Source: Pseudoscleropodium purum (lineage: Eukaryota; Streptophyta; Bryopsida; Hypnales; Brachytheciaceae). Taken from it: DNA of 64,000 bases. The stretch covers positions 21,433,063 through 21,497,062 of the forward strand of contig OZ017795.1 of the NCBI GenBank assembly GCA_963969395.1, read 5' to 3'. Position numbers and translations under genes: made by a program. Shown in pieces: positions 2,840 through 62,440 of the stretch. Under the pieces are notes generated by a model. The model was not told where the DNA came from. It made no database searches and saw nothing but the letters and a program-made list of their open reading frames with translations. Position 1 is the first letter of the stretch, and each line of letters opens with the position of its first letter.

Positions 2840-3440
2840 GTGTGTTCTCAATCTCTCTCATTTTTGGTTTGGTCCATGTCCTTGAAATTCCTTTTTAATG
2901 CCTAAAAGACTAAACTATGTTTTGGGGGATATAATAATTTGGAGAGCTCACTATGAATGAAAATTTTATTTTCTTTGAAATTTTTCACAAAACATGTGGT
3001 TGAGGAGTAGCTTTAAGCTTCAACAATTTCATAACTTTAGAGTGCATGATTAAAAAGTTATTGTATGATGAGTAGTTTTTTCACAACCTAGGCACTCATG
3101 ACAGATCAAAAAAATTATTTGTTTTCATTGAAACTAGCTTTCTAGATTTATTTATGTTTAAAGACTTTGAATATTCCCATTTTAATTAATGAGATGAAAG
3201 TTATGGGGAGTTTTAGTTTGCAGGCAATTATGGGATCCCTACTTTTAAATAAATTTGAAGTCCCTTTATTAAACTAAATTTTCAATATTTAGAAAATAAT
3301 AAAAATTATGGGATGTAGATTATCTATTATAACATTACAACCATAGGCATTGACATTTTCAATTCCACAACTAAATTCTTAATAATTTTGTATTTTGAAT
3401 CATTTTGTACTTCTTTCTATGTACTATTTTTTTCAAGTAT
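2840..3440 (-). repeat. Right arm of the 1.3-kb imperfect palindrome
   Basis: Read on the minus strand, this arm matches 2130-2740: 'aaatttggagagctcactatgaatg' faces 'cattcatagtgagttgccc' in the left arm, and the block around 3300-3420 mirrors 2140-2340. The symmetry centre is near 2.83 kb. Arms are diverged and carry small indels. This is the structure of an old foldback element or of two copies inserted head to head. Confidence 0.7.
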
Positions 3441-12394: not shown

Positions 12395-13165
12395 TTTTGA
12401 CTATATTTTCACCAAAATCGCTCAAAAATTGCCATTTCTAGTACAAGTACCCAAATTAAAATTCTTTTTGGACACTTGTAACCATAAAATCTTGCAGTAT
12501 ATTAGATTGAAAAGATGCACAAAAACTTTCAAAAACTTTCTACCTTGTAGATTGCAAGATAATAGCATTTGAAGTGACAAAAATCTTTTATTTGGCCTTG
12601 TAAAAATTTGTATAGTTGCACTTTATAAGGTCACATTTGTATGAAAAAATGTCCAAAATGGTGGTTACTCTTTGAATTCATTCTTCAAGTTAAGTTGGCT
12701 ATATGTTTGAAAAAAATTCAAATCATTTTGAATTGTACAACATATAGGAAAAATATAGTAGGTAGAAAGAGTGAGAATGATTCAAAATACAAAGTTGTTA
12801 ACATTATATTTATGGAATTGAAAAATGCCAATCCCAATGGTTGTAATGTTGTAATAAACAATCTATACCTAGTGTTTTAATTTTTTTCCCAAAATATTGA
12901 AAATTGAGTTAAATAAAGGACTTCAATGTTTGTCTTAGAGTAGAAATTCAATACTGACCCATAAACTCCCGCAAACTAAAAACTCCTCATAAATTTTGAT
13001 TCATTAGTCAAAATGGAATGATTCAAAGCTTTGTAAGTATATCTAAATCTAGAGAAGCAATTTCGAATTTTAAAAAGGTGAATCTTAAAGAATTTTGTTT
13101 TGTTGCCTGGATTGCCTTCCAAGTAATGAAAACACATATCATACAATAACTTTTTAACCAAGCAC
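12395..13165 (+). repeat. Dispersed repeat, copy 2 (single arm)
   Basis: Direct copy of about 1785-2640, similar over most of its length but without the AT microsatellite and without the mirror arm. Homology stops abruptly at 'aactttttaacca'. The 79-codon frame starting at 12641 lies inside this repeat and is not conserved in copy 1, so it is not called as a gene. Confidence 0.75.
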
Positions 13166-29113: not shown

Positions 29114-31408
29114 TCAGGGGCTTAGAGTTTGAGAGAGAGGACAAACGGCATTAAGCAGGATATGTACGAGCATGAGATCCACAAAGTACTGGTGCCCGAT
29201 TTGCGGGCTCCGCCACGCTTCTTTCGGTGGTCGCCACGGCCACGGCGACTTCGCAGGCTCTCTACCGTAATGCACTCCATCGGTATGATTCAAATCGTAA
29301 TGCCACGGGAATGTCAAGTCGAACGCGTCCACCACTTTCAAGCGCTCGATGATCGCCTCCTTCTGCATCTTCTCCACAAATATTCTATTGTAGATTTCCA
29401 TTTTGTGAGGGTTAGGGAGGCCGTCTCGCGCATGACCGGCGTCGCTTTTGCTGTACCCGGCGCTCGTGATCGTGGTCCTGTAAACTACGGCGGGGTTCGT
29501 TTTCTGCCATATTGAATTCCAGAAATGAACGGCGTAATCCACTCCTTCTGCAAACTCTCTCGCAGTTTGATAGAAATGCGCGTCGTGGAGGCCGGAGTTC
29601 ATCACCATTGTGTCCGGGAATTGTGTCTCGTTCCAGAACGAGACCAGAAGCTCCCGGTAGGATTCGCTTTGCAAGCTCGATAGTCCATTGAGGTTTCCCA
29701 GCTCCTCCGCATGGCCGTTGAAGATCTTCGTGATGGTGACGGACTGGCTTGCGTTTCCAGGACGCGCGAATGTCCCATTGAACCATCGGCGCATGCGGAA
29801 AACGTCTTCGAGAGGAAATCCTAAAACGAAGTTGAGCAAGTTTCGGACCGTGTCTTCGTTGTTGGAGTCGCCCCAGAAGAACAACCACCGGTTGTTCAAA
29901 CACTCCCACGCTTCCTCCGTGGTGAAGATCTTGAACTTGCAATGCGCGGAATACGTCCATCCGTTGCTCTCCAGCAAGCCGACTTTCCCTTCGCACCAGG
30001 CCGAGTCGCAGTCTTCATCTGGAGGAATGCAAACAAACCTCCCGTCGTCGCGAATCTCGCACGAATCGTTCCAGGTATGGCGATTCCACCGCCCACTCCA
30101 CGCTTTCAATCCGAAATCGCCTTCTCCGCATCTTGCCAATGCAACCCTGAATTGTTCTCCCTGATCTGGAACCCGAAAATCAATCTCGACTGTGAGGATG
30201 TCTTCCAGACGCGACCAGGCGGTGCAGTTCCAGGCGTCTAAGGCGTGAAAATTCGCAAACAGGAGCACTACTTTGAAAAGAAAAATTCCTGCATACTGTG
30301 AGTCGACCATTATTTGGACGCCATAGCTGCCGTCTTGGTGGTCGAGGATGGGCGGCCGGGCCTTCCAGTGGGATCCAGAGAGGTCTGTTTCAAAGAAGTC
30401 GCCGCCTGCACAGCGTCTTCGACCGCTGGATTCGTAGGAGACGACCAGAATTTCATGGATTTGTCCTGTTTGGAGTTGAATGGGCTTCCCATTCTCCGGT
30501 TTCGGAAGGCCGAAGACTTCCGCGGTGAACGTTGGTTGTTGGTAACATGGCAAAGTGAGATTCTCGCTTTCTTGTTGAAGCAATCTCAAGCTTTCGTTTG
30601 GTAGCGTTGGGTACAGCAATGGCCAAGAGTCGGTCCTGATCTTCAACTCTGGTACACTGCTTTCCTGCAACGTGTGCAAGGTAAAGGATACTCTTTTCGT
30701 CACTTTCACTATATGTAGGAGTCAGTGTGCTTTCATTGAGATGTCACTCAATAGAGCTCACTGGAGAGCTCACTCTGCTATAAGAGCAAACTCTCTTTAG
30801 TACAAATTGCTTTATCAGTTAGTGTATGATAATTTCTTGTGCAATCATTGAAAGTGGGTGGTTGTAGACCACTATTGAAGAGCAAAGTAGACAATCCCAT
30901 TTCCAAAGATCAGTGGCCACAGACAGTTAACCAAGTCATGGTTACATCCATCTTGCTAGTTGAATGTCAACCGAGTATGTTGGAAGGAAAAAGAGTTGTT
31001 GGTAAAAGGGGCAGTCAACAGGAGGCTGTATCATGTCCCTAATGGTTTTGGTATCGTTGACCTTATCCAAAATTGTGTATTTGTCTGCAATCTTGGACAG
31101 GATTAGGACTACTCTTGCAGCTTGCGATGCATCCAGGAGGTAAATCATTCTACCTATTCAAGACTGTATATGAGATCAGGGTCTGCAAGTGTAGGACTTA
31201 CTTGCGACGCTTGTGATGATGAAGAATCAGTGGATGTTGGTAGGGAGACCACTAGGCCAGGTTGCAAACTGGCCATGTAGTCTTGCAGAAACACGTTGCG
31301 ACTGCACGCAATGGCCGTTTTGTAGCCCAGGAACAGCATAGTGACGATGAAGCCTACTTTGAAAGCTGCTCCCACCAGTACGCCCTTGTCTAGCAGCTTC
31401 GTCTTCAT
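29114..31408 (-). CDS. Type II membrane filamin-like + SGNH/PC-esterase protein (NXPE-like), two exons
   Basis: Exons 31408-31202 and 30664-29114, joined by CAA|GTAAGT and TTGCAG|GAAAG at a codon boundary, give 585 aa. Start chosen at MKTKLLDKG because it places a signal-anchor (GVLVGAAFKVGFIVTMLFLGY, about residues 9-29) right at the N-terminus; a longer frame upstream contains a likely leader acceptor. Residues about 105-205 resemble a filamin/Ig-like fold (SGSHWKARPPILDHQDGSY, then VQIMVDSQYAGIF). Residues about 320-570 form a PC-esterase-type SGNH domain with a GDS block (FFWGDSNNED, Ser336), the MNSGLHDAHF block (about 425-433) and a DGVHYG block (Asp531, His534). Family members O-acetylate or de-acetylate glycans in Golgi or wall, so a Golgi-lumen or secreted catalytic domain is inferred. 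Substrate unknown. Confidence 0.82.
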
Positions 31409-35959: not shown

Positions 35960-37005
35960 TACACTACTAGAAAATTTATGACCAAAACAACAGAATTTCA
36001 ACTCAAATGTGTTGAGTAATTCAGTCATTTTAGAAGTGTTGTTTTGGACAAAATCAAATTGAAATTTATTGATTTTTTCTGTTGTTTTGGACAAATCAAA
36101 AAAATTAAATTAAATTTTAAATGAATTTTTTTTTTAAATTAAATTTTTTTTGGATGGTGTCCATACAAAATATTTTTTTTTCTACCTAGGCAACCCGCTA
36201 CGCAAGTAGGGCCACCTAAGCCACTCACCACGCAGGCAAGTGCCTCCAAGGGGGTTTGAACCTTGGACCTCATGTTTCGAGGTTTAAGGTTCCAACCACT
36301 AAACCACCTAAATACTCAAGTGACCACACATGAACTAGAACTTTATATATTTAATTTTTTCATGTGTTTTGTATTTTCAGCGGACTTCAAAGGTCATTTA
36401 GTCATAGTAGAACACATTTTTTCAAAAAACTTGAAACAAAGAAAAGTTATAAATTCAAACTAAATTTCACCTCCAAAAATCTGTTTGTGATTTTGAATCT
36501 CCAATAAAAAGATATGGACAAAAATCAGAGAGAATGTTTGAAAATGTCAAAATAAATGTTACTAACTACCCCTCTCTGATTTTTGTCTATAACTTTTGAT
36601 TGGAGGATTGAAATCACAAACTGATTTTTGGAGGTGAAAGTTATCTTGAATTTACAACTTTTCTCAGTTCTAAATTTTTTGAAATTTTTTATTTTACTAT
36701 GCAAGAATGGACTCCAAAGTCTGCTGAATTGAAAAAAGACTGAATTTTACATGATTAATTTTTTTTTAAATCATTATACTTAGATTCTCAAATATTCCAA
36801 AAAGATCCCAAAAATATTCTTGAAAGATTCCAAATTCAACAAAAACTTGTTGATTTGGTTATTGCACTATCCAAATCAACAGAAAGAACTTGCCATTGTG
36901 TTGATTTTTACAAAATGTTTCAAAATGGTCATTCTATTGTCCTAAATAACATAAATTAGTTGAATTTATGTTGTTTTGGTTGTGCATTTCTACCCTAATT
37001 AGGGT
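35960..37005. mobile_element. Long-terminal-inverted-repeat (foldback/MULE-like) element, ~1.05 kb
   Basis: The left end (TAGAAAATTTATGACCAAAA...) pairs with the right end read on the minus strand (TAGAAATGCACAACCAAAA...). Pairing continues inward over most of the element, with a tight inner hairpin (about 36418-36535 against 36571-36685, e.g. cacctccaaaaatctgtttg / ctgatttttggaggtg). GGTGCT occurs on both flanks (35954-35959 and 37006-37011) inside a partly matching 9-bp context, which suits a Mutator-like target duplication. The left end also resembles CACTA text (CACTACTAGAAAA), so superfamily is uncertain. No transposase is encoded. Confidence 0.65.
36165..36330 (-). mobile_element. tRNA-derived SINE fragment nested in the foldback element
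   Basis: On the minus strand a pol III A box TGGTTTAGTGG (36306-36296) and B box GGTTCAAACCC (36262-36252) are correctly ordered and spaced. The segment is GC-richer than the foldback arms and has no partner in the right arm, so it inserted after the foldback formed. Not a tRNA gene: no cloverleaf was found. Confidence 0.6.
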
Positions 37006-41800: not shown

Positions 41801-42780
41801 AAAGGAGAGGTACATTAATTTTCCTTTAATTTTAATTGTAATCAATTTGAATTTTAGATTAATGTATGAATTAAGTAGTTAGAATTTTGGTAGTTAGAAT
41901 TAATTAGAGATAGATCAGCATTACTAAAAAGAAACCTAAAATTAAAAACTTAACTAAAAATTAGATTAGGACTAGATTAAGCGTAGGAAGTTCATTAATT
42001 ATCAAGTCAAAGAATTTAGCTAAGAGTCCAATTTTACTTCACTAGGAAGTGAAATTATAATATCAACTTAAAACCTTGGAAGATCCTTTAAGAATCTCTA
42101 AAATCCATAATAATAACCAAAGAATAGACTTAGAAGTAGAATAATTAGAAATATCCTCAAAAAACCACTAAAAAATCTTTTGAAGAGAGAATCAATTAGG
42201 AAATCTTTTACAGATTCCAAATCCACCCTTACTTTGAAAATTGATTAATTTTTGAGATAATAATGTGTGGATGAAGTTTTGTCCCATTTTGGATGAACTT
42301 TCTCAAAATAGGTCAAAATTAGGATTTTTCTTAAAAATCTAATATTTTAACCAATCAATAATGATATCTTAAAGTTTGGGATTTTTTAAAATTGATTTGC
42401 TATTTTTAATAAGCGGATGAAGTCTTTAGGCCAGAATTAGGGGTAGTTTTCATCTGTCGATAACTTTTGATAGGAATAGTGGAATTTGACATACTTTATC
42501 ATTTTGGAAAGAATAAATCATATTCTACAACTTAGCTTAAATAAAACTCACGGATAGATTAGTTTTTACTTACTTATTTAGGATTAAACATTCTAACTAG
42601 TTAGGTAGGATTAAAACATTTAAATTAGGTTCAAAACATAAACATAAAAGTGTCCATTGCTTGAAAGGCCAAAAGAACACTTAACTGGTGAAACCCCATT
42701 GAATTAATTAAATTGTTGCTAGGACCTATGTGCAAGTTTTTACTCTAAGGGGTGGAGTTGAAAACACTCTCAAATGATGC
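38818..42780. mobile_element. ~4-kb insertion that splits the piggyBac relic; unclassified element
   Basis: It interrupts the piggyBac frame between GWYEP (38.8 kb) and LKAYLVACIFVGLK (42.8 kb). It is AT-rich with one readable piece at 39554-39734 (ECGKIPLKIELV...), which resembles a minus-strand piece at about 61985-62150 (ECDKISLKIIIA...). A promoter-like tatataagggcccc lies at about 40402. No reverse transcriptase, integrase or clear LTRs were found, so this could be a decayed LTR-derived (LARD-like) or other element. Exact ends and target duplication unresolved. Confidence 0.4.
39554..39734 (+). pseudogene. Unidentified ORF fragment shared with the inverted copy at 62 kb
   Basis: About 60 codons starting ECGKIPLKI, with KFEDFLIGRS later. 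The matching minus-strand frame at about 62150-61985 reads ECDKISLKI... KFCDILIAGD. Similarity is clearer in protein than in DNA, so it was once coding. Family unknown. Confidence 0.45.
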
Positions 42781-44125
42781 CTTTTGACAATAGCAACTTT
42801 GAAGGCCTACTTGGTAGCCTGCATTTTTGTGGGATTGAAAAGAAACCAAATTCGAGGACTTATTGGAGCAAGGAAGGTACATTTTTCCATTGTCCTTGAA
42901 TTTCCAAAATTTTATCTACAGTAATCTTTGAGGTGATGACAAGATGCCTCCACATCACAAATCTAGTTACCTATGTTACGGAGAGATATGCCAGGTTATG
43001 ACAAAATGGGGCAAGTGTGGTGGCTTATACATGAAATTAGAGATAGTTTCAAGCATGAGTAGGCTTTGGAGAAGTACCTTACTATTGACGAAATGATGAT
43101 ATGGTACAAAGGCTCTTACTGTCTTGCTAGGCAATATATGCCCAAAAAACCACAAAAATGGGGCATAAAAGTATGGTGCTTAACAAATTCTTCATCCAAG
43201 TACATTTTCAATTTTGAAATCTATTGTGGGGCAAATTACAATGGAGAAGAAGAAATGGCACCAATAGTTCGTGTAGAAGTGAATGTAGCACACAATGTTG
43301 TTTGCAATTGCTAAATGGCCAAGAAGGGAGGGGGCATGTTGTGGTCACGAACAACTATTTCTCTAACATTGGATTATTTATGGAGTTGGGTGCACTAGAA
43401 ATTTATGCCACAAGCACTATGAGGTCTAATAAGGTAGGACTACCAATGAAATTGAAACTTGTTCAAAATTGAGCCAATTCCACTCAAGGTACTTTACAAT
43501 GGGCAATGCATGAATCTCAAAGCATTGCATGTGTATTGTGGAAAGACAAACGCCCAGTCCTTTTCATTTCTACTCATGCATTACCCATCATTTTATCATG
43601 TATGCCAATACCTATGGTTCCACAAAAAAATGGAGCAAGAAGGAACCCAATTCTAACTTCCCCTATTCATTTAGAGTACACCACACACATGAGAGGGGTG
43701 GATATGATAGACCAAGTTAGAGCATTATACTCTAGCTAGACAAGGGCACACAAGTGGTGGCATTGAATTTTTTTATTTTTTATTGGATACAACAATGGTG
43801 AATATGTACATCATCTATCTAGCAGGCAATTGTGAACGATGACATCAATGGAAACCAATTAGTCACCTACAGTTCAAGGTGGATTTATATGATGCACTCA
43901 TCCAAAATTGGTGTGGCGGAGGTACTAACGTGGATGAAGAAGAAGCTCTACACCTTCACTTGCCAACTTCAAGTCGATTGAGGCGTATATGTGTAGTATA
44001 TGGTGATGAAAAGAATAGCTTCTATTGTCAAGCATGCAATTGGAATTTTATGTGCCTAAATTAGAGATGTTCTGAAGAGTATCATTACAAGCCACAAACT
44101 TGCAATCCTCACAACCATGAGTGAA
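42781..44125 (+). pseudogene. piggyBac transposase relic, central and C-terminal parts
   Basis: Frames shift and stop several times but the domain order is clear: LKAYLVACIFVGLK, YWSKEG, CLHITNLVTYVTER, YDKMGQVWWLIHEIRDSF, stop (43060), LTIDEMMIWYKGSYCL, YMPKKPQKWGIKVW, NFEIYCG, then after a shift GHVVVTNNYFSNIGLF and ATSTMRSNKVGLP, then MRGVDMIDQVRALYSS, HKWWH and a decayed Cys-rich tail (CQACNW...CSEEYH). The first and third catalytic Asp (in TIDE and GVDMID) are present. The second (normally in TDNYF) reads Asn. PiggyBac transposases cut at TTAA; this one cannot act. Confidence 0.85.
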
Positions 44126-45099
44126 GAGCATGAGGTGAATTCAATTTTCTATACCTTTACATTTTTTTGCTTTTGGCATGTTCAAGTTTTTCCTTAGGTG
44201 CTACAATTTCTTCTTCACCTTCAATTTTGATAGGCTACAACTTCTATTAATTTTTCTATAATCCTATGCTTTTTTTCCTATGTTGTAATAATTTTTGGAC
44301 CCCTCTATTTTTGTTCTACACCTTCATTATGGTTTTTCCATCCTTCTATATTTTTTTTATGCACCTATTTTTATTTTTTAGTATGTTATGTAATTTTTTC
44401 TTGAATTTATTTATTTATTTAAGCCTTTTCTATGGTTACCTTATAGACCCTTAATCCTTACCCTTGATATCTTTTAGACCACTTCTATAATTTTTTGTAA
44501 ATTTACCTTTAGCACCCATCCTAAACCCTAAGCTTAGTTGGGTCCTTTTCATTTTTGTGGATAGGTTTTTAGATGTCAAAAAAGTTAATTTGATTATAGC
44601 CAAATTGTGATGACATTTTTTACTCCTTGTTTGGACCAGGCAATAGCTCATCCATTCTTTGTCCTAGCTGGGGTGCTTTTCTTCCCTAGGAGATGTGGGA
44701 GTGAAAGGGAGCAAGATGTGGCAATTAGGAGCAGGAGGCAATGGGAGCATTGGAAGGTGCATCACATGAGTAGTCATATTAGAGAGGGTTGGCCAATTGA
44801 CTAGAGAGGGTCTATTAGAGGGAGTTCAAACAAGTAGATGACTTACACAGCAACTAGAAGAATAGGGGTGCACTAAGATGGAATTTTTTTATGATAGCAA
44901 TCTCCTTTTTGGGATAACAAGAAGTCTCTATATTCTTATGTTTTTAGTTTTTTTTATTAAGAATCCTTATTCTTCTTAGAAGAAATATAACTAGTATTGG
45001 TGATTTGAATAATGTATACAACCTTTTTAAGTGTGAATTTACTATGGAAAAAAATACATGGATTTATATTTATCTCCTTAGAAAAAAATGAAGTATAAG
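44126..45099. other. AT-rich DNA after the piggyBac relic
   Basis: T-rich text with no gene recognised. May contain the piggyBac right end; I found no convincing terminal repeat next to a TTAA. Confidence 0.35.
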
Positions 45100-45540
45100 A
45101 ATTTTTCTAATTTTTACCCTCCAAATACGTAGGATGTTTTGGAAGTCATCCTTCACACAAAACATATGCCTTGTACTTCATTAGAAAGTGTATAAGAAAT
45201 CCTAAAAGTATGCAAAAAAATCGTAGATAAAAAAGGATGGAAATGAAATAGCAATAAAAGCCATGAGCATCATTGTAATTTGTACCCTCCAAGTATGTGA
45301 CATGTTTTGGAAGTCATCCTTCATATAAAATATATATTTCATACTTCATTAAAAAGTGTGCAAAAAATCTTAAACAAGGAAGGTTGGAAATGAAATAGCA
45401 ATTGAAGCCATGAGCATCATTGCAATTTGTACTCCCCAAGTATGTGACATGTTTTGGAAGATAGTCATCCTCCACACAAGACATATATTTCATACTTCAT
45501 TGAAAAATGTATAGGAAATCCTAGACAAAGAAAAACAATA
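45100..45540. repeat. Three tandem units of ~147-168 bp
   Basis: Units begin near 45115, 45283 and 45430 with 'taccctccaartaygt...gatgttttggaagtcatcc' text and share 'catacttcatt' and 'gccatgagcatcatt'. No coding capacity. Confidence 0.7.
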
Positions 45541-45984
45541 AATTGAATTTATAATTGTAAAGTGTAAATGTAAGAGAGTATGTAGATAGAATTAGTGTAA
45601 AAAATATATATAAATATATATAAGTATAAAAAAAATTATACATATATATACATATATAGTGTAAAAGATAAAAATTTTCTCTATATATAATGTACATTAG
45701 TTATTTATGGATTCGAGGTCTAAAATTAAATCAAAACTAATATCTAAAGAAAGTATTTTGTATTATTTTGTATATATTCTCTAAGAATCCAAGTGTAAAA
45801 AATTGAAAATCTGAACTTCTTTTGATTCCAAAAGAATTTGTAGAGAATTTTGAAAATTTGAATTAGAAAGTTTCTTAAAATTTTAAAATTTTCTATATAA
45901 TTCTAAAAGATTTGATTCATGCCATGTAGATAATTCATGTGAAAGTTTTAAAGCAAATATTTAAAAAAATATTCCTTTGACTTT

Positions 45985-46172
45985 TCAAAAGTGTGAAAGA
46001 ACTCTAATATAAAAGGTTCTTTTTTATTTTTCAAAAGCATGAAAGAACTCTAATGTAAAAGGTTCTTTTTATATTTTTACAATGTATAAGAACTCTAATG
46101 TATAAAAAGTTCTTTTCACATTTCACAAAAATAAAAGAACTCCAATGTAAAAGGTTACTTTTACATTTAGAC
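45985..46172. repeat. Four short palindromic tandem units (~47 bp)
   Basis: Each unit reads about AAAGAACTCTAATGTAAAAGG then TTCTTTT, so GAACyt...aGGTTC can fold back on itself. Units lie at about 45993, 46037, 46088 and 46134, ending ~160 bp before the Tet-like relic. Confidence 0.65.
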
Positions 46173-46328
46173 ATAAGTCTATAAAAATAATATAATGAGC
46201 CATAGAAATATTATTTGCCTTTACCACATTGAATTTATTAACTATTATTCATTGTTAGTAAGTTTGAATAATACTAATTAATTTTATAGAACTATTGAAA
46301 ATTTATCATGATGCAAACTAATGTGAGC

Positions 46329-47412
46329 ATGAAGCGCAAAGCTCATGCTAAAGTTTGCTGAGAGAGAAGTTTGAATAAAACATTTGAACAAATAGGTCCA
46401 CATAAAGAAAATGAATGTTATGTGGTTGAACAATCTTGCAACTTGGAAGATAGTGCTTTAGATGGAACAATGATGAATGAGATTCTAGAAGGATATCTAA
46501 TGCTACACAAAAATAAAGTAGACATTCAAGACAAGAACACCAAAGAGATAGTGCTAATCATTTCATTCACAAAATTTGAAGACAGGAAATCTTTGAAAGA
46601 ATATGAAGACTTTGAAAAGCTAACAATTTCACTAGCGAAATTGACAAAGGGAGGCTTGGGCTTCACACAAAATAGTAAAGCACAAGTACATGGAAAGATG
46701 TTTGCATTGGGGTGGAGAAGTGCTATGGATGCTAGATACACTATGGGTCATTATATCATAGGGTGTGGCATTACAAATTCTAAAGCCACTATTGATGAAT
46801 GGGAAAAAGATCAAGTGGAGTTGGTTAAATGGGTTTCTGATTTTTATGAATCAAAATTAATGGGACAAATACCATATCTTTATGGAAAAACGATTGATGA
46901 AGTATAAGTGGGTGTTCCATTATTAGGCCAAACAGAGTTTACAAATCTAGAACAAAGCTCTAGAACTGGATTTTCAAGTACACTCACTTATATAATTGAT
47001 GATTTTTACAATACCATTCATCAGGATTACAATCATAATTCTCATGTGTATGGAATTTGGGCACCAACAATAGAAAAAAATTGGGAGAGTAGTAAAAGTG
47101 AGTGATGGGTTTAATTGTAATGGACGGCACTTTGTTGTCCCAAGTTACAAACTCTATGTCGACTTTGGACAATGTAATGGCGTTGTTGAAATAGTTTGGC
47201 GAGCAAAAACAGACTTCCATGCTACTTCACAATCAAAAACAACAAAAGGATTTACTCGTGTTGGAACTTTTGCTCGAATAACCAAAAGTTTGGTAGATAG
47301 AGTTCAATTGTTGACCAGACTTCAAAGAATTGGAGAAGATGTGAATCTTAAAATACATGGAGTGAAAGAAATTATAGAACAAAAGAAACAAAAACTCCAT
47401 GATAGTAGATAA
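46329..47412 (+). pseudogene. Tet-like 2OG-Fe(II) oxygenase relic (Tet_JBP_2 type)
   Basis: Readable over about 360 codons from an ATG at 46329. Breaks: TGA at 46359, TAA at 46905 and a one-base shift in an A4 run at 47094-47097. Conserved pieces in order: a central block ending GKMFALGWRSAMDA and GHYI; then LTYIIDDFYNTIHQDYN, giving the HxD iron pair; YGIWAP; FVVPSYKLYVDFGQCNGVVEI; DFHATSQSK (distal His); FTRVGTFARITKSLVDRV (2OG-binding Arg). This order matches, from memory, the Tet-like oxygenases abundant in rust and other basidiomycete fungi. TET/JBP enzymes oxidise 5-methylcytosine or thymine using Fe(II) and 2-oxoglutarate. No introns seen. Activity is excluded in the present state unless the breaks are assembly errors. 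Confidence 0.72.
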
Positions 47413-47440: not shown

Positions 47441-47713
47441 CAGGGTTGACATGACGTCCGGATGCGGACGCTGTGTCCGCAGCGTCTGCTGACATTCACG
47501 GTCCCGACGGACGCAACGTCCGCCCGTCCGCCCGATTACGGCCGTCCGATCGACATGCGGACTGATGTGGTCCGCATGATCTGGGCGTCCGCTCCGTCCG
47601 TCCGCCCCACCCGTCCGCTTTCCGACGGTGGTTGGGACGCTACGTCCGCCAGCGTCCGTGCGTCCGGGTTACGGATGCTTTTTTCGGGCGGACGTAGAGA
47701 TTCGTCAACCCTG
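47441..47713. mobile_element. GC-rich hAT-type MITE, copy 1, with perfect 8-bp target duplication
   Basis: Ends CAGGGTTGAC...GTCAACCCTG, flanked by AATGTATT at 47433-47440 and 47714-47721. The CAGGG start and 8-bp duplication are hallmarks of hAT elements. The 273-bp interior is dense in CGTCC/GGACG words and can fold extensively, in strong contrast to the AT-rich surroundings. It lies 29 bp past the end of the Tet-like relic. No coding capacity. Confidence 0.9.
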
Positions 47714-48394: not shown

Positions 48395-48721
48395 TAGGGT
48401 TGACAGGACAGTCGGACGTCCGGACGTGGACGCTGTGTCCGCAGCGTCCGCTGACATTCGCGGTCCCGGCGAACACAGCATCCACCGGGACCACCCCGTC
48501 CACCTGTCCCCCCATCTGCCTGTCTGCCCTTCCGCCCCGTCCGCCTGGTTACGGCCGTCCGATCGACACGCGGACTGATGTGGTCCGCATGATTTGGGTG
48601 TCCGCCCTGCCCGTTCGCCTTTCGACGGCGGGAAGGACGCTGCGTCCGTTGGCGTCCGTGAGGACGGACATCTGGGTTACGGACGCTATTTTGGGGCGGA
48701 CGTACTGATTTGTCAACCTTG
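48395..48721. mobile_element. GC-rich hAT-type MITE, copy 2
   Basis: Ends TAGGGTTGACA...TGTCAACCTTG, flanked by ctccaaac (48387-48394) and ttccaaac (48722-48729), 7 of 8 matching. Shares with copy 1 the blocks cgctgtgtccgcagcgtc, cggtccc, ttacggccgtccgatcgac and gactgatgtggtccgcatga. It is 54 bp longer, mainly through extra CCCC/CCGTCC text. The higher divergence of its ends and duplication suggests it inserted earlier than copy 1. Confidence 0.88.
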
Positions 48722-55865: not shown

Positions 55866-56990
55866 CTAGGATGCAAACAAAATATCTCTCATAGCCTCTC
55901 TTGCCACCTTTGACACCAAACCTTCACACGTAAGTTGTATTCTTCCTACATGAAAATCAACAAAAGGATTGTTTTGAAGTCTAACATCAGCTGATACAAA
56001 TGCCCGTTGCTTGTGTATCTTACAAAAATTGTACAAAACACAACAAGCCAAAGTAACAAGAGCAACTTTTTCAACCGACATATTGAAAGCTTTAAGAATG
56101 TGCCATTGATTCTTTAAAGACCTAAAAGCTTGTTCAATAACAACTCTACTACTATTCACAGAAGAATCAAATCTGCACAAATCTCAAAGGTTTTTAATAA
56201 ACTATGAATTGAATTTGAAAATTTGTGAATACAATTATGTGAGAAAATCATAAACTAAAGAAATGACCATACCTAATTTAATCCACCATAGTTGAATTAC
56301 TTGGTTTAAAATTTTTTTGCAGATGTGGTCTGCTTGGATAAGCTATGTCGCCAATTAGGTATGGCCTTATGTCCATTTCACTCAAGTGGATGACTAGTCT
56401 TCTTAGAATTTGTCTTGTGCTCAATTGAGTAGCAAAGGAAGAAACTAGAAATTGAGTTGCATTGTGTACACTTTTCGGTTGTTGCGCACATACATTCCAA
56501 AACATCCGATTTGAGTCACACACTCCTTCTAAAGCAATGCTATGAAATTTTTCCGATTAAAAAAGTCTTGCGGCATAGGAATATGTTGTTTACTAGGTCA
56601 ACATGTCAAAGGGATGTGGGTGCCATCTATGGCACTTGTTATGTTTGATAAATTAGTGATGTTCCTAAAACTTTCTATGATACCATGTAGCCGATCACTA
56701 TGTGGTGTGTGAATGAATTGAAAAAAGACACCATGTTCTGCAATTTCTAAAGCCCAACATACAATCATGGTATATTTTTGAATAGTTGATTCACCGCATC
56801 CATATAAGTTGTGCATTCTAGCACAACTTATATCATATGCAAGTCAATATAAAATAAGCTTCACTTGCTTTCTAACTAGAATGAATGGTCTCACAAACCT
56901 AATAGCAATGGGACTTAAAAAGAGCGTCAAAAAATCAACTAATGCCTCAAATGTTAAGAAGTCCAGGCAATAAATTTCCAACACCTCATA
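55866..56990 (-). pseudogene. PIF/Harbinger transposase relic (DDE_Tnp_4)
   Basis: Minus-strand pieces in order: FEALVDFLTLFLSPIAIRFV, a stop, MHNLYGCGESTIQKYTMIV, SAIDGTHIPLTC (first Asp), MCDSNRMFWNV (VCD block), IRPYLIGDIAYPSRPHLQ (second Asp), then NSSRVVIEQAFRSLKNQWHI (Glu) and LACCVLYNFCKIH. All three catalytic residues are still present. The last two pieces appear joined by a ~97-bp GT-AG intron (about 56272-56176, AG|GTATGG...GTGCAG|A), which puts VD*I next to RFDSS. Frameshifts and stops disable it. Confidence 0.8.
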
Positions 56991-61009: not shown

Positions 61010-61207
61010 TTCAAAGCTTTGCCGTCGTTTCTAAATTCACTAAATTTCTAATAAATTCTAAAAACTCAAGGCTAGAACTTCACCATCGTTTCTAAAATCA
61101 CTATATTTCTAATAAATTCTAAAAACTCAAGGCCAAAGCTTCGCCATTGTTTCTAAAATCTCTAAATTTTTAATAAACTCTAAAAACTCAAGGCCAAAGC
61201 CTTGCCA
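61010..61207. repeat. Three 61-bp tandem units
   Basis: cgtttctaaa or gtttctaaaa recurs at 61026, 61087 and 61148, each followed by 'tcact...ttctaataaattctaaaaactcaagg'. Highly similar units, so relatively young. Not a CRISPR: no spacers. Confidence 0.85.
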
Positions 61208-62440
61208 TGGGAATGGAAACTTTGGAAATTCTAACATCAATGTAAGTCAACTTCAACATGTAATCAAGAGTTTCAAACACACTTACAAACACTAGAGGTC
61301 CTCCAAAGTGGCATCACCAAGGTACGAAGGGGGAATTCTCTAGGATTAATACAACAACTCAAAAATCATAAAAAATATTGACATAAGGACTCTACCATAC
61401 ATAGACTTAAGACAATTCTTGAAGGAACTTCAATGTCCTTCAAGAAAGCTAGAAAATAGTGATAATTGAGCTAAAAATGTTCCAAAAACACAAATTTGGC
61501 AACGTTGGTATTCAATGGTCAAAATGTCCAACTAAATGGATCTAAATTGTATAGAAAGCCAAAATAATGGCTTTAAGAGGTGTTTGTAAGAGGGAAATGA
61601 GCCCCCTTATATACATTTCCAAGGGTACTCCCTCCCTCTCTTTTTCTTAGTAGTAATCTTATCATCTAAGATTTTCATCTTGAATAATCTATTTTGACTT
61701 TCTATATTGGTCCAAAGTTCTAACTTTTGGAAAAATACTTCAAATGGCAAACGGATTGCGCTAATGGCTTCAGAATGCAATTTTTTAGTGGATTACACCT
61801 TTTACTCCCTTTTCCAACCTCAAAATCCTAAAGAATCTTAGTGATGACTAGAAACCCCCAATGGATAAAAATCCAAGTTTGGGAGTTTTCAATGTTTGAC
61901 AAAAGTGATTAGCTTAGGCTCTTAGATAGGTTCAAGGGAGTAGAAGAGACCCTAAGTTTGTTTTATTCTAATGTCGTGTGCTTCTGATACGCCGCTCAAG
62001 TCCGTACTTGATTGTTGAATTTGCTGATTTCGAAGGATCTTGCTACTTTGGGCATCTCCCGCTATCAGAATATCACAAAACTTGTTGGAGTGCTTTATAA
62101 ACATGAAAGAAGCTATAATAATTTTTAGTGAGATTTTATCGCACTCATGGTAATTTCCACAAATTTTCTACATCAAATTCGGATAGTTGATTGTTCGAAA
62201 AAAAATCTAGGATGATTAGAAAAATCAAGACTTTTTGGAGAATCTCTCATGGAATTCACCAAGAATTGTGCAAGTTTACAATTTCACCTTGCATCTATGG
62301 AAAAGAAAAAGAAATCCAACTACCTTCTTTAATTTTCAGTGAAATAGGGAATCTTTTACGAAAAGGAAAATCTTGGCGAAATGATGGCTCCGTTGGACTC
62401 TTGCTTCAAATTAGCATACTTAGATCGTAGATGCCCTTTG
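61208..62440 (-). mobile_element. Second copy of the unclassified element, inverted relative to 39 kb
   Basis: Minus-strand text matches parts of 39.2-40.4 kb: a 'ggagccatcat' block, 'gagtgcgataaaatctcactaaaaatt' (compare 39556-39585), an 'aagtttt...ttctgatag' block, and a promoter-like 'tatataaggggg' (about 61616-61605), like the 'tatataagggcccc' at 40402. Readable piece ECDKISLKIIIA lies at about 62150-61985. Element ends unresolved. Confidence 0.4.

Follow-up and report, generated by a model that had tools for sequence, protein, structure and literature searches.

Locus and reading frame

Within the window (the whole 64-kb stretch of DNA that was analysed), a Tet-like 2OG-Fe(II) dioxygenase pseudogene is located on the plus strand at 46308..47412, where a match to the Pfam family PF20515 is spread over a broken frame. 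The frame runs from an ATG at 46308 to a stop codon at 47410-47412, giving about 367 codons, and no intron is apparent. The initial annotation had placed the relic at 46329 to 47412; its end was kept and its start was moved slightly upstream to the ATG. The three breaks that it had listed (two stops and one shift) were all seen in the sequence. Two in-frame stops are present at 46359 and 46905, and a single frame shift falls somewhere in 47074 to ~47094. Around this shift, separate PF20515 matches stop at ~47090 and restart at ~47092, which suits a position of 47094. The longest stop-free run of the relic is 181 codons, and the maximum in 200 base shuffles of the same 1105 bp was 104 codons over the three forward frames.

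The breaks might be sequencing or assembly errors in an intact gene, as only three of them were found, one lies near A-runs and the iron-binding residues are intact. However, two of the three are stops outside homopolymer runs, and the CpG loss and decayed neighbourhood described below fit a true pseudogene, which makes this explanation very improbable. We take the relic as a pseudogene whose present copy yields no working protein. The whole account is built on this single Tet-like locus. A retrocopy origin was considered and rejected, because no A-tail was found downstream and the longest flanking direct repeat was 9 bp, all A/T save one base.

Family assignment and catalytic residues

With an X placed at each break, the read-through relic matched PF20515 (2OG-FeII_Oxy_6, Tet-like 2OG-Fe(II) oxygenase superfamily) with 119.5 bits (E 2.6e-34) and covered positions 26-211 of the 211-position profile. 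The three pieces taken singly gave 24.5, 37.6 and 48.6 bits. The curated cutoff of the family is 27 bits, so the first piece falls just below it and the read-through relic above it. PF20515 was the sole Pfam family listed for the read-through relic at a limit of E 10, at which the HMMER filters still discard most matches above about 0.1. The profile search thus bears out the Tet-like family proposed at the outset. Confusion with another 2OG dioxygenase family, such as ALKBH or prolyl hydroxylase, is conceivable because the fold and the motif order are general to the superfamily. It is disfavoured and hardly credible here, since no other Pfam family was listed and the pieces match PF20515 singly.

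Because the profile tool gives no alignment, conserved columns were probed by in silico Ala swaps in the relic core, with a reference score of 89.9 bits. In the HxD iron-binding pair (His-Gln-Asp, 47019..47027, plus strand), the swap of His cost 5.4 bits and that of Asp 4.4 bits. The swap of the distal iron-binding His (47218..47220, plus strand) cost 6.5 bits and shortened the match. Four controls inside the profile, with Ala at two other His and at two other Arg, shifted the score by +2.0, -1.3, -2.4 and +0.1 bits. The HxD pair and the distal His therefore lie on conserved PF20515 columns, as expected if they align with the Tet core. Swaps of two downstream Arg gave a change of 0.0, and PF20515 ends upstream of both; the candidate 2OG-binding Arg (47257..47259, plus strand), 13 residues past the distal His, is thus assigned by spacing only. 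The motif set described earlier, with HxD, distal His and Arg in this order, was found as such, the iron-binding residues being placed by the profile and the Arg by its distance. In profile coverage and iron-binding columns the relic resembles other PF20515 members, and it differs from them by its moss host and its broken frame.

The relic was further compared with characterized Tet enzymes. The algal TET homologue CMD1 shares the order H-x-D...H...R, and its H397-R410 spacing of 13 equals that from distal His to Arg in the relic, whereas the HxD-His to distal-His distance is 52 residues in CMD1 and 66 in the relic (PMC7854593). CcTet of Coprinopsis cinerea has the same residue order (H326, D328, H376, R385), with spacings of 50 and 9 against 66 and 13 in the relic (PMC11040006). 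At the position five residues after the first His of HxD (H+5), an Asp or Asn contacts N4 of 5mC, namely Asp350 in CMD1 and Asn1387 in TET2 (PMC7854593). By plain count the relic has His instead, so 5mC as its substrate is not assured. CcTet also has neither Asp nor Asn at H+5, where Gly331 is found (PMC11040006, PMC12730594), and this residue is therefore not defining for the whole TET/JBP family. The 6mA residues of CcTet, which is of the AG type (Gly331 and Asp337), correspond to His and Gly in the relic by a plain ungapped count of unaligned sequences.

Moss nuclear context

To the left of the relic, a gene at 29117-30721 (minus strand) encodes a protein which is 69% identical to a Ceratodon purpureus protein, whereas no other named plant exceeds 47% identity among the 120 matches listed out of 455. 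The 455 relatives at E 1e-5 or better indicate a conserved land-plant protein, for which no Pfam match was obtained. The names listed for these relatives were mostly 'hypothetical' or 'uncharacterized', and a few were mutually conflicting. In a 14-row tree, in which Ceratodon was the only named moss, the protein joined Ceratodon and two environmental sequences with support of 99/99. The gene after it codes for PTAC2/PAP2, which is associated with the plastid RNA polymerase (E 5.2e-39 to the solved protein), and SAC3/GANP and TPX2 genes are located further left in the window. Based on the Ceratodon-like gene and its PTAC2/PAP2 neighbour, the window was taken as moss nuclear DNA, which agrees with the plant host of the initial annotation and specifies it as a moss. 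To the right of the relic, a profile search found no host-gene protein domain up to 61.8 kb, so the plant anchoring is one-sided. In the whole window, no Rfam family reached its gathering threshold and no tRNA was found.

PF20515 is known mainly from fungi. The Tet-like family of the relic and its moss host are both well supported; the relic is a genuine member of an established enzyme family, found in a host lineage that was not expected to have it.

Transposon-rich surroundings

A piggyBac-type transposase relic is located at 42768..44124 (plus strand, ends approximate), about 2.2 kb upstream of the Tet-like relic and on the same strand. It matched PF13843 with 75.4 and 62 bits in two frames, and it also matched the solved transposases piggyBac (PDB 6x67, E 3.3e-07) and piggyBat (PDB 9c0f, E 2.7e-04). 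The alignment extends across the stretches of what we take to be the first and third catalytic Asp, whereas the position presumed to be the second holds Asn, as judged from the motif. Unlike the solved enzymes the relic is heavily decayed; counted by eye, its frame is interrupted by three shifts and by five or six stops. A Cys-rich C-terminal stretch is still visible. A fern genome paper tabulates PiggyBac repeats (1230; PMC6890710), so the mere presence of repeats classed as piggyBac in a seedless plant is no novelty. Another candidate source, PMC10619864, was set aside, as its matching word was 'piggybacking' and not the transposon.

Just downstream of the Tet-like relic lies a MITE at 47441..47713 with the TIR CAGGGTTGAC/GTCAACCCTG and the 8-bp TSD AATGTATT, and a second copy of the same family is found at 48395..48721 with the TSD CTCCAAAC/TTCCAAAC (7/8). 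Both are presumably hAT-like, judging from the form of their TIR and TSD. A DDE_Tnp_4 match at ~56028-56171 (minus strand), which we assume to be of PIF/Harbinger type, reached 22.8 bits, below its cutoff of 24.8. In a six-frame domain search of 32.1-61.8 kb with E up to 0.1, only the piggyBac and Tet-like relics and this sub-cutoff match were found; the region of 1-32 kb was covered for domains through its ORFs. The surroundings of the relic thus look like a transposon graveyard, and the transposon zone recognised by the initial annotation was found again in the form of the piggyBac relic, the two MITEs and the Harbinger-type match.

Other repeats were also observed in the window. A dispersed repeat at 1788-2424 and 12399-13032 shows 81% identity over 646 bp and has a related inverted copy at 3042-3434. 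An inverted repeat at 36364-36740 has 169-nt arms (78% complementary) and a 39-nt loop. Tandem or near-tandem repeats occur at 45095-45532, 45982-46168 and 61012-61208 with units of ~147-168, 46 and 61 bp, respectively, the first two falling between the piggyBac and Tet-like relics.

Base composition and decay

Loss of CpG is what long-lasting cytosine methylation usually leaves behind. The observed/expected CpG ratio of the Tet-like relic (0.29) resembles those of the piggyBac relic (0.22) and of the two 10-kb flanks (0.27 and 0.38), whereas four host gene stretches, of which two contain introns, gave 0.67-1.13. The TpG/CpA values were 1.43 and 1.44 for the Tet-like and piggyBac relics, 1.20 and 1.19 for the flanks, and 0.92-1.29 for the host stretches. 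GC3 was 0.21-0.28 in the Tet-like relic, and six measured stretches of host coding sequence gave 0.44-0.74. As the relic is depleted in CpG like the zone around it, it has long been resident and was probably methylated. The loss is not uniform across the zone, since both hAT-like MITEs are GC-rich (65%) and CpG-rich (CpG o/e 1.43 and 1.17). In our reading the Tet-like relic is no contaminant but a silenced, transposon-like resident of the genome.

These values also bear on the possibility that the relic is a former moss host gene, that is a domesticated or ancestral TET turned pseudogene. A green alga keeps the TET homologue CMD1 (PMC7854593), so the green lineage once had the fold. However, host coding stretches are richer in GC3 and CpG than the AT-rich, CpG-depleted relic, and the longer distance between the iron-binding His residues (66 against 52) separates the relic from CMD1. 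A host-gene origin therefore appears improbable.

Search for relatives

Protein relatives of the relic were searched among 5.8 billion NCBI, UniRef, nr and EukProt proteins, covering proteins of about 202-644 aa that share 5-residue words with it. One search returned 732 candidates, none at E 0.01 or better, and another protein-word search of the same set returned 4 candidates, none at E 1 or better. Given the span of the database, this result is informative. It says little on unannotated copies, because transposon genes are frequently left unannotated. Pattern matches to the relic were obtained in bacterial and archaeal contigs (76) and in viral contigs (17), and none was confirmed. A sequence search of the PDB gave no meaningful match, only one stray alpha-galactosidase at E 1.2. 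No significant second Tet-like copy was found in the 64-kb window, where two stray matches had E 5.0 and 9.3.

According to a 2019 research paper that cites a 2009 survey, no TET/JBP dioxygenase had been identified in plants (PMC6917789), and plant TETs are treated as an open question in PMC6949463. Green algae are listed among the organisms with TET_JBP proteins in PMC11065753, and the 'plant' passages of PMC12730594 name no plant TET. No report of TET in moss appeared in titles and abstract openings among the matches listed, and part of this search may have missed the wording 'TET/JBP'.

With no fungal or other relative retrieved, the origin of the relic could be either a horizontal transfer or an old plant transposon lineage. 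Horizontal transfer into a moss lineage, of either a TET+ transposon or a gene from a fungus, would accord with a family known mainly from fungi and with the statement of PMC6917789 on plants. Against it, the two word-based searches of 5.8 billion proteins gave no relative, although a sequenced and annotated fungus that had donated the gene recently should have shown up, and the loss of CpG points to long residence. The transfer may also be an old one, or the donor a fungus not yet sampled, and we consider horizontal transfer overall an unlikely but serious alternative.

Putative transposon carrier

Transposon carriage of the Tet-like gene is likely. Points in its favour are the lack of an apparent intron, the low GC3, a CpG decay like that of the piggyBac relic, and the transposase relic upstream. 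A precedent is provided by fungal DNA transposons, of which 11 lineages bear TET/JBP genes (TET+; PMC12730594). The relic shares the transposon-zone setting with these fungal genes (PU, AG and PE types) and has HxD, unlike the HxE of the PE type; it differs from them in its plant host and in that no terminal repeats were found. Searches for a TIR/TSD pair enclosing the Tet gene alone, and for a TIR with TSD enclosing the Tet and piggyBac relics together, each gave 0 matches, and decayed ends could be missed by them. Around the piggyBac relic alone, two weak matches were obtained, a number and score also reached in 15 shuffles.

One specific form of carriage is that the piggyBac element represented by the transposase relic 2.2 kb upstream also bore the Tet-like gene, in one element with the transposase first and Tet second. 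The same strand and order and the near-identical CpG-decay signatures are in line with this arrangement, as are the break densities (3/1105 bp vs 8-9/1357 bp), which are not significantly different (one-sided binomial p 0.19-0.14). However, transposon graveyards put unrelated relics side by side, and piggyBac is not one of the 11 TET+ lineages of PMC12730594. Furthermore, no TIR with TSD was found around both genes, and TTAA-bounded inverted repeats in three layouts did not rise above shuffles; the best around both genes was 11/16, against a mean of 9.9 and a maximum of 11 in 50 shuffles. PiggyBac carriage is thus possible but unproven, and we regard this arrangement as rather unlikely. We are similarly doubtful that mosses harbour a piggyBac lineage which counters its silencing with a Tet-like DNA dioxygenase gene of its own; if true, no TET-bearing transposon would have been known from plants before, and a further transposon superfamily would be added to those with such cargo.

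The explanation preferred here, with a probability of roughly 0.6, is that a Tet-like DNA dioxygenase gene, most likely borne at one time by a DNA transposon, has left a dead copy in the nuclear genome of a moss. Enzyme function, origin and carrier of the relic are what we infer. The intact ancestor would have held Fe(II) through H-x-D...H and bound 2-oxoglutarate through the downstream Arg, and it may have oxidised a methylated DNA base, most likely 5mC. Such oxidation could have allowed the carrier element to evade cytosine methylation, by which plant transposons are silenced. Once inserted, the present copy would itself have been methylated, leading to CpG loss and decay.

Biological meaning

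In plants, 5mC is held to be excised directly by ROS1/DME glycosylases (PMC6917789). A Tet-like gene in a moss, even a dead one, means that a land-plant genome has at some time contained a presumed oxidative base-modifying enzyme, which probably served a transposon. Should intact siblings exist, the reports of oxidised cytosine in plants would gain a testable source, and the moss would offer a system in which to follow how a transposon resists methylation.
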